DNA of 20,708 nt from a virus. Positions 4,230 through 13,588 of the stretch are shown piece after piece. Location of the stretch: the IMG/VR virus record IMGVR_UViG_3300006917_000192, positions 1 to 20,708 of that record; one strand, given 5' to 3'. Positions within the stretch are counted from its first letter, which is position 1. Each line of letters begins with the position of its first letter. A model generated the notes under the pieces. That model was given only the letters and a program-made list of their open reading frames with translations. It made no database searches and was not told the DNA's origin. Position numbers and translations under genes: made by a program.

Positions 4230-4305
<76 letters not shown>

Positions 4306-4307
4306 TT

Positions 4308-4315
4308 TATAAATA
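4308..4315 (+). promoter_or_regulatory. late promoter box TATAAATA
   Basis: An exact match to the T4 late -10 consensus (recognised in T4 by gp55 RNA polymerase with gp33 and the sliding clamp). It lies 2 nt after the tRNA. With T4 geometry, transcription would start at about 4321, only 5 nt before the ATG at 4326, and would run through the 34-residue ORF and the cell-wall hydrolase, which are expected late products. Confidence 0.65.
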
Positions 4316-4325
4316 AGATAAGTTT

Positions 4326-4523
4326 ATGATACAATTGAATCCTCCATTGCCCATAATCACACCAAAAGGAAAAGGCTGGGCACATTTTTTAATAGATCGT
4401 TCTCAGGAACATCATCTAGAATGGGTTGTCTTCATCGATCAAACGGGAGAATGTTGGACTTTCAGGAATCCTGAAATACGGATTCAAGAAAACTATAGCA
4501 TGGGAAGACAAAAACATCAATAG
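4326..4523 (+). CDS. conserved small phage protein, unknown function
   Basis: A 65-residue protein beginning MIQLNPPLPIITPKGKGWAH and containing DRSQEHHLEWVVFIDQTGECWTF. This pattern, a beta-rich core with HH and a GECWTF strand, is a small conserved family in T4-like marine phages that I recognise by style but cannot name. The predicted late transcript starts about 5 nt before the ATG, so this gene would be almost leaderless from that promoter and has no clear Shine-Dalgarno. It could also be translated from longer upstream RNA. No membrane segment. Confidence 0.8.
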   Translation: MIQLNPPLPIITPKGKGWAHFLIDRSQEHHLEWVVFIDQTGECWTFRNPEIRIQENYSMGRQKHQ

Positions 4524-4662: not shown

Positions 4663-5096
4663 TGTTAATAGAAAAAGTAGGCTACAGACCATATAACAAA
4701 GTGATCAATCAAAAACAATTAAAGTGTTTAACCGATAACGTATACTTTGAAGCTGGTAACGACACAGAAAGCGCAAAAATAGCAGTTGCACTAGTCACGT
4801 TGAATCGGTTAAAGCACGAATATTTCCCTGATACTATTTGTGATGTAGTTTATCAAAGAACAAAATGGAAATGTCAATTCACTTGGGTGTGTAAAGGTCT
4901 GAGAAGAGTCTATTACAGAAATACTTATAATGAAAGCAAGAAAATAGCTGAATATGTAATCATGAATTATGATCATATTGAGGATAACACGAAAGGAGCT
5001 ACATTTTTTCACCATAGACGTATCCATAACCCCTTTATAAGAATCGGTGCTCGAAGAACTGCTTCTATAGGAAAACATATTTTTTACAAACTATGA
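4662..5096 (+). CDS. SleB/CwlJ-type cell-wall hydrolase (probable endolysin)
   Basis: A 144-residue protein with the features of the Hydrolase_2 (SleB/CwlJ) family, lytic transglycosylases or amidases that cut peptidoglycan. LTDNVYFEAGNDTESAKIAVALVTLNRL holds the putative catalytic Glu (E30) and the typical N-R; ICDVVYQRTKWKCQFTW (about 66-82) and GATFFHHRRIHNPF (about 121-134) are the other family blocks. It lacks its own signal peptide. The upstream 34-residue ORF overlaps it by TAATG, and a late promoter lies upstream, so it is probably the lysis endolysin. It overlaps the next gene by ATGA. Confidence 0.88.
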   Translation: MLIEKVGYRPYNKVINQKQLKCLTDNVYFEAGNDTESAKIAVALVTLNRLKHEYFPDTICDVVYQRTKWKCQFTWVCKGLRRVYYRNTYNESKKIAEYVIMNYDHIEDNTKGATFFHHRRIHNPFIRIGARRTASIGKHIFYKL

Positions 5097-5335
5097 AAAA
5101 AATTAAAATCAATTCAGTAAAATCAGTTCAAGACTTCATCAAAGAAATTGATGCGTTGGTGAATGATTTTCAACTCGATTACATAGACGCAGTTGTTTAT
5201 TATTGTGAAAAAAACAATATTGAAATCGAAACAGCTGCTTCCCTCGTAAAAAGCTCAAGTAAGATTAAAGCTAAAGTACAATTAGCTGCTGAAGAAAAAA
5301 ATTATATTGCTAAAAGTGCTAAGCTTCCAATATGA
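5093..5335 (+). CDS. 33: gp33-like late transcription coactivator
   Basis: An 80-residue helical protein immediately before gp59, the place of gene 33 in T4 (33-59-32). In T4, gp33 bridges the RNA polymerase beta flap and the sliding clamp so that late promoters are activated. This protein is shorter than T4 gp33 (112) but has the pattern I recall for the short marine versions: SVQDFIKEIDALVNDFQLDYIDAVVYYCEKNNIEIETAASLVKSS..., then a Lys-rich helix ending in KSAKLPI. Assignment rests mainly on gene order. It overlaps both neighbours by ATGA, so translation is likely coupled. Confidence 0.7.
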   Translation: MKKIKINSVKSVQDFIKEIDALVNDFQLDYIDAVVYYCEKNNIEIETAASLVKSSSKIKAKVQLAAEEKNYIAKSAKLPI

Positions 5336-13113: not shown

Positions 13114-13553
13114 TAAACCATTATTCCTAATTCTTTTTCTGTTGCTATTACAAACTTCCAGTTTTTACTAGAACAATATTTGTTAGCTGCTTCCCATTTT
13201 GCTTGATTGACACCCCATGTTTGAACTTCATATAAATACTGTTTGGTTATAGTTTTTTGAGGAGTAGGCGGTATAGTTTGTTTTTGTGGTTTAACTTCTA
13301 TGACTACTGTTTCTACTAAACCTTCTTTATTTATTTTCTTAATCCAAAAATCAGGAAAATATCTATGTACTTTTCCATCTATGGGTGATACATAAGGAAT
13401 GAAAAATTCTTCACTAGCCCACTCTAAAACATTGGAATTCTTATCCAAATAGCTCATCAATTTTAGTTCATACAAAGATCTATAAATAATATTAGTTGGA
13501 TTTCCTTTGTATTTTTTAGGGTGTTTGGGTTTGAAATAGCCTTTATAACTCAT
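13113..13553 (-). CDS. 4: gp4 head completion protein, nuclease-like fold
   Basis: A 146-residue protein very like T4 gp4 (150, also 50/65), needed to finish DNA-filled heads before tail joining. Matches include YKGYFKPKHPKKYKGNPTNIIYRSLYE (T4 YSGKWVPKNISKYRGDPKKITYRSNWE), EWASEEFFIPYVSPIDGKVHRYFPDFWI (T4 AWGSETAVIPYFCNAEGKKRRYFMDIWM), VVIEVKPQKQTIPP (T4 FIEIKPKKETQPP) and EVQTWGVNQAKWEAA. D68 in RYFPDFW and E-x-K in IEVKP match a PD-(D/E)XK/TnsA-like nuclease centre. The late -10 box on this strand (13566-13559) would start RNA exactly at the ATG, so no leader is predicted. Confidence 0.95.
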   Translation of the reverse strand: MSYKGYFKPKHPKKYKGNPTNIIYRSLYELKLMSYLDKNSNVLEWASEEFFIPYVSPIDGKVHRYFPDFWIKKINKEGLVETVVIEVKPQKQTIPPTPQKTITKQYLYEVQTWGVNQAKWEAANKYCSSKNWKFVIATEKELGIMV

Positions 13554-13558
13554 GAAAC

Positions 13559-13570
13559 TATTTATAAATA
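13559..13570. promoter_or_regulatory. palindromic two-way late promoter TATTTATAAATA
   Basis: A perfect 12-bp palindrome between the divergent late blocks. The plus strand has TATAAATA at 13563-13570 and the minus strand has the same box at 13566-13559; both match the T4 late consensus exactly and they overlap by 4 bp. With T4 spacing, plus-strand RNA starts near 13576 (leader with AAAAAGGA before ATG 13589) and minus-strand RNA near 13553, the first base of gene 4. Confidence 0.85.
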
Positions 13571-13588
13571 CTTTTAAAAAGGATCAAA

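Follow-up and report, generated by a model that had tools for sequence, protein, structure and literature searches.

A predicted two-way palindromic late promoter between gp4 and gp48 of a T4-like phage, and a class of predicted leaderless gp4 starts

The divergent genes for a gp4-like head closure protein and a gp48-like baseplate tail tube cap, found in a viral record of 20,708 nucleotides (the whole of which is referred to here as the window), have between them a 12-bp palindrome, TATTTATAAATA, which we consider likely to be a bidirectional T4-type late promoter that includes a leaderless start for gp4. Beyond the window, the gp4 junctions of uncultured T4-like phages point to a widespread class in which the late gp4 mRNA would be leaderless, the box would have been doubled in several lineages into a palindrome that also fires gp48, and, where the gap is short, the gp48 promoter would lie inside gp4 at synonymous positions, a broader reading for which we regard the case as evenly balanced. 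The less expected result is this leaderless gp4 class, and not the two-way palindrome.

The record is assigned to a T4-like phage because it encodes a gp33-like late-transcription co-activator, a gp59-like loader and a gp32-like SSB, and the putative gp33 homologue points to the presence of T4-type late transcription; gp55 was not found within the 20.7-kb record, which is explained by the record being a fragment of that size. Family searches identified a gp53-like wedge protein, a gp2 end protector, tail tube and hub genes as neighbours of the junction (Table 1). Genes run on the plus strand up to about 6958, on the minus strand from 13553 down to 6955, and then on the plus strand again, and the 35-bp gap between gp4 and gp48 (13554-13588) is the sole divergent junction of the window. 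The coordinates and the family searches confirm the original prediction on this point, and the sequence confirms that the palindrome is self-complementary and holds an exact T4-type late box on each strand, with a 4-bp overlap.

Table 1. Features at the gp4/gp48 junction and related features of the window; all transcription starts are predictions from sequence by T4 geometry.
Feature	Coordinates	Strand	Evidence and remarks
gp33-like late-transcription co-activator	5093..5335	+	phrog_254 late promoter transcriptional regulator, 3.3e-12
gp4-like head closure protein, 146 aa	13113..13553	-	phrog_218, 1.6e-57; Pfam TnsA-like N, 2.2e-23; without Shine-Dalgarno
Second gp48-directed late box TATAAATA	13481..13488	+	antisense to gp4 codons 22-25 (I-I-Y-R); synonymous-codon bias
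Palindrome TATTTATAAATA	13559..13570		two late -10 boxes, 4-bp overlap; conserved in L133-L137 and L139
gp4-directed late box TATAAATA	13559..13566	-	predicted start 13553, the A of the gp4 ATG; spacer 5 nt
gp48-directed late box TATAAATA	13563..13570	+	predicted start 13576, leader 13 nt; 18 nt before gp48 ATG
Shine-Dalgarno AAGGA of gp48	13579..13583	+	sequence; anti-SD pairing -5.4 kcal/mol
gp48-like baseplate tail tube cap, 382 aa	13589..14737	+	phrog_230, 3.6e-24

The T4-type late -10 consensus is TATAAATA (PMC1524935, PMC2984593), and in T4 the late box spans positions -13 to -6 (PMC1524935). The palindrome is this element, present in relatives as NATAAATA, read exactly on both strands (plus, 13563-13570; minus, 13566-13559), with the 4 bp TATA in common. 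Its two opposed boxes stand upstream of virion genes on either side, as is the case for T4-type late promoters, and in the overlapping divergent arrangement of the T4 26/51 junction. TATTTATAAATA occurs as a single copy in the record, where 0.03 copies are expected per dinucleotide shuffle (3 of 100 shuffles had one copy). TATAAATA alone is not rare in the window, which has a G+C content of 34%: there are five matches against 3.1 expected, and thus no over-representation. What goes beyond chance is the position, the palindromic overlap and the conservation of TATTTATAAATA, and not the count of TATAAATA by itself. One exact TATAAATA at 4308-4315 (+) comes directly after a tRNA-Thr gene (4230-4305) and 10 nt before a 65-aa ORF at 4326 that has little SD.

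A near-identity search of annotated phages with the junction gave no match, and relatives were therefore taken from IMG/VR. Among seven IMG/VR loci related to the window through gp48, TATTTATAAATA is exact in L002 (gp48 100% identical), L003 (73%), L004 (65%), L006 (62%) and L005 (61%), and only the gp4-directed half is found in L008 (39%) and L007 (45%). When relatives are approached through gp4, the palindrome is present in 6 of 80 loci (Table 1). It is exactly conserved in relatives despite diverged flanks, and the gp48 half is invariant across all members of the palindrome clade. Two-way use is apparently not essential to the gp4/gp48 gene order, since the gp48 half is missing from the immediate sisters L138, L140 and L141, in which TATAAATA stands exactly 5 nt upstream of the gp4 ATG. 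The expectation that the palindrome would be kept in relatives with the same gene order thus holds for the nearest clade and breaks down just outside it, for the gp48 half only. On the gp4 tree the window palindrome clade (the window, L136 and L137) is nested in a short-spacer clade that also includes L138, L140 and L292. This nesting suggests that the gp4 box may be older than the gp48 half, on a tree whose rooting is arbitrary and which does not of itself set the direction of change.

The two-way palindromic late promoter is not new, and is already known in kind from T4. In a 1989 report in Virology, Scarlato et al. are said to have described overlapping T4 late promoters serving divergent transcription of the baseplate cluster. 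Our literature searches turned up no publication on T4-type late promoters of the overlapping or the leaderless kind. The identical TATTTATAAATA, the only copy in T4, lies between the divergent genes 26 (-) and 51 (+) (AF158101 116450-116461), so that, as in the window, two TATAAATA boxes overlap by 4 bp at a divergent late-gene junction, and the T4-like record OL960580 annotates two T4-type late promoters at 26/51 that overlap by 4 bp. The T4 junction differs in its gene pair and in the gene 51 box, which stands 17 nt before the ATG with an SD; the distance from the palindrome to the start of gene 26 is about 22 bp, and neither T4 26/51 mRNA is predicted to be leaderless, in contrast to the window gp4. 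At the T4 gp4/gp53 junction (AF158101 77337-77385) a homologous gp4 and a baseplate gene diverge, and the gap between them holds a pair of opposed late boxes, both annotated in X15728. In this case the boxes face each other without overlap, at an offset of 15 bp, the neighbour is gp53 and not gp48, and gp4 has a 26-nt spacer with an SD, compared with 5 nt and no SD in the window. The facing boxes (AF158101 77349-77371; L129 3350-3372) place each promoter on the far side, which would make the 5' ends of the two transcripts overlap. The description of the palindrome as a single site suggests uniqueness, but the same device is found in T4 at 26/51, and T4 gp4/gp53 shows a version without overlap. 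In the cyanophages Syn9, P-SSM2, S-SSM7 and S-SCSM2R, gp4 likewise has a late-type box upstream and diverges from a baseplate or hypothetical gene, but this box is 24-25 nt before the gp4 ATG, in some as TCTAAATA, and forms no palindrome.

On the minus strand of the window the order is box, GTTTC and the ATG of gp4, and because the box ends 5 nt upstream the T4 geometry places the predicted +1 on the A of the ATG. The original prediction had given starts at 13553 and 13576, both of which fit the T4 rule, but it missed that the gp4 start codon begins at 13553, and with it the point that the gp4-directed transcript is predicted to be leaderless. A leaderless mRNA would begin on or within about 5 nt of its start codon, where this predicted position falls, and would have no Shine-Dalgarno upstream, in line with the anti-SD pairing of -0.1 kcal/mol for gp4 versus -5.4 kcal/mol for gp48. 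Among the 24 pairs of exact late box and ATG listed for T4 the shortest spacer is 13 nt, and no T4 late gene examined has its box nearer to the ATG.

A gp4 mRNA that is not leaderless, either through initiation shifted upstream or through an extra promoter inside gp48 that provides a leader, is in our judgement unlikely. Start choice can vary by a few nucleotides, and after such a shift the gp4 mRNA could carry a short leader, or its 5' end could fall within the ATG. Against this, no further gp4-directed NATAAATA lies within 530 bp upstream in the window, where a single weak sigma-70-like match is found, there is no SD upstream of gp4 that a leader could use, and the gp4 start is fixed by homology from the first residues (MSYKGYFKPKHPKKYKG versus MAYSGKWVPKNISKYRG in T4).

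The same short spacer is found at many other gp4 junctions. A pattern scan for M-x-Y-K-G starts with an exact box 0-30 nt upstream gave at least 119 analysable matches, at least 102 of them gp4, and the class sizes given here, which are those of the matches listed for this pattern and distance, are not frequencies in nature. Among the dereplicated matches listed the spacer between box and ATG is bimodal, with at least 27 at 4-7 nt (17 at exactly 5), at least two at 10 nt and at least 39 at 14-30 nt (36 of these at 24-30). Anti-SD pairing of -3 kcal/mol or lower was found for none of the 27 short-spacer starts and for 13 of the 39 long-spacer starts among the matches listed (Mann-Whitney p 4e-7 for short versus long spacers, a value that ignores relatedness among the phages), and we infer that the short-spacer gp4 mRNAs are probably leaderless. 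In an independent sample of 50 dereplicated gp4 junctions, a box with no more than one mismatch lies at 4-7 nt in 27, compared with a mean of 0.5 and a maximum of 4 in 500 shuffles; 26 loci have it at 5 or 6 nt. The neighbour is divergent for 33 of 36 short-spacer and 57 of 66 long-spacer cases among the matches listed. A cultured phage of the short-spacer class was sought, and none was found in the panel examined: the spacer is long in T4, Syn9, P-SSM2, S-SSM7, S-SCSM2R, S-CREM1, S-T4, Sf-CH8 and DLP6, and no close box is present in S-SZBM1, P-TIM40, S-WAM1, S-RIM8, ACG-2014f, Vibrio K484 and phiM12, with Cr30 placed in neither group as its gp4 start was not resolved.

The palindrome is enriched at these short-spacer boxes. 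Among the matches listed, the 12-bp form is present at 7 of 27 short-spacer gp4 boxes versus 17 of 306 other boxes on the same contigs, and a 14-bp version, TATTTATATAAATA, at 5 of 27 versus 7 of 306 (Fisher p 1.4e-3 for the 12-mer and 2.3e-6 for the 12- plus 14-mer, values that again hold for the matches listed and ignore relatedness). A tree of 128 gp4 proteins requires six changes for the 12-mer, at least five of which are forced by well-supported branches, and the palindrome thus recurs at gp4 junctions in no fewer than five distinct parts of the tree; TATTTATATAAATA corresponds to one clade. The loci with TATTTATATAAATA, whose boxes overlap by 2 bp and stand 6-7 nt before gp4 (L242, L246, L248, L267, L303, L311, L313 and L317), form a separate and well-supported gp4 clade. 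A scan for a 14-mer palindrome returned mostly unrelated AT-rich contigs.

The two-way late promoter of the original prediction is supported by conservation in relatives, recurrence in gp4 lineages, the T4 26/51 element, the OL960580 annotation and the gp33 homologue, as far as sequence comparison can establish it. We propose that a T4-type (gp55-gp33-gp45) polymerase would bind the -10 element common to both promoters, facing either way. Facing along the plus strand, it would start at about 13576 and give a gp48 mRNA with AAGGA in its 13-nt leader. Facing along the minus strand, it would start close to 13553, where the gp4 ATG has its A, and the gp4 mRNA would be leaderless. In the clade of the window, an older box directed towards gp4 probably gained, or retained, the gp48 half at this compact junction.

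A second source of gp48 transcripts has to be considered, because the box at 13481-13488, inside gp4, is a candidate alternative gp48 promoter. A coding coincidence of the gp4 sequence NIIYRS, in which CGN arginine codons remove the last base, was considered for this box and was dropped because of the Ile codon usage and the link with gap length. The Ile codons at the in-gene box are ATT in 70-79% of cases, versus about 35% at other gp4 Ile positions, and NATAAATA antisense to gp4 I-I-Y is present in 29 of 33 junctions with gaps of at most 26 bp, 4 of 26 with gaps of 27-40 bp and 14 of 47 with gaps above 40 bp (18 of 73 for all gaps longer than 26 bp). Where the gap leaves no room for a gp48 promoter, the promoter may sit inside gp4, a relation that involves few independent pairs on the tree. 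A third gp48-directed TATAAATA is present at 13231-13238 (+) inside gp4, about 358 nt before the gp48 ATG; L003-L006 and L008 have it too, and in L142, L144, L146, L147 and L186 it occupies the same position of gp4.

The in-gene box at 13481 bears on the possibility that only the gp4-directed half of the palindrome works, the gp48 half being chance or drift in a small clade and gp48 being read from the 13481 box. The link with short gaps, the ATT bias and the perfect TATAAATA of the in-gene box in the window clade speak for it, as do the nearest sisters, which keep the gp4 half without the gp48 half. We nevertheless find it improbable, given that the gp48 half is invariant in the palindrome clade and lies at the usual 18-19-nt spacer, before an SD, and that the palindrome recurs in other lineages, most of them without an in-gene box; a tree-aware test of gap length against the in-gene box had too few pairs to decide.

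The original prediction went further and suggested that competition at the shared site could act as regulation and set the ratio of gp4/gp2/hub-block to baseplate-block transcripts. By geometry two polymerases cannot occupy overlapping -10 boxes, so the two proposed initiations would be mutually exclusive on one DNA copy, and the overlap recurs. As late DNA is multi-copy, such exclusion need not limit output. In addition, the gp48 half is absent from sister phages that share this gene order, T4 gp4/gp53 has separate boxes, and compact AT-rich geometry accounts for the overlap without regulation. The second gp48 box also means that in the window gp48 may have two promoters and gp4 one, which further weakens a competition model that we consider quite doubtful. 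A chance AT-rich palindrome without promoter function would suit the low G+C of the window and the ordinary frequency of TATAAATA, but is extremely unlikely in view of the exact conservation amid diverged flanks, the exact 5-6-nt register to the gp4 ATG, the enrichment at the gp4 junction and the identical element at a divergent T4 late junction.

The two-way palindrome alone adds little, since T4 has one. If the leaderless reading of the gp4 class is correct, leaderless translation would be a standing feature of how a large environmental T4-like group expresses its virion genes. The gp4 junctions would then form a natural series, with separate boxes, overlapping boxes, a box on the start codon and a box inside the neighbour gene, which could be used to study both the sharing or exclusion of polymerase by divergent late genes and the possibility that leaderless starts keep low-copy head proteins low. 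In S-SZBM1, P-TIM40 and S-WAM1 (L459 1501, L464 1501 and L476 1201) there is no gap at all, and gp4 and gp48 stand head to head in one CATG, with start codons that overlap by 2 bp.
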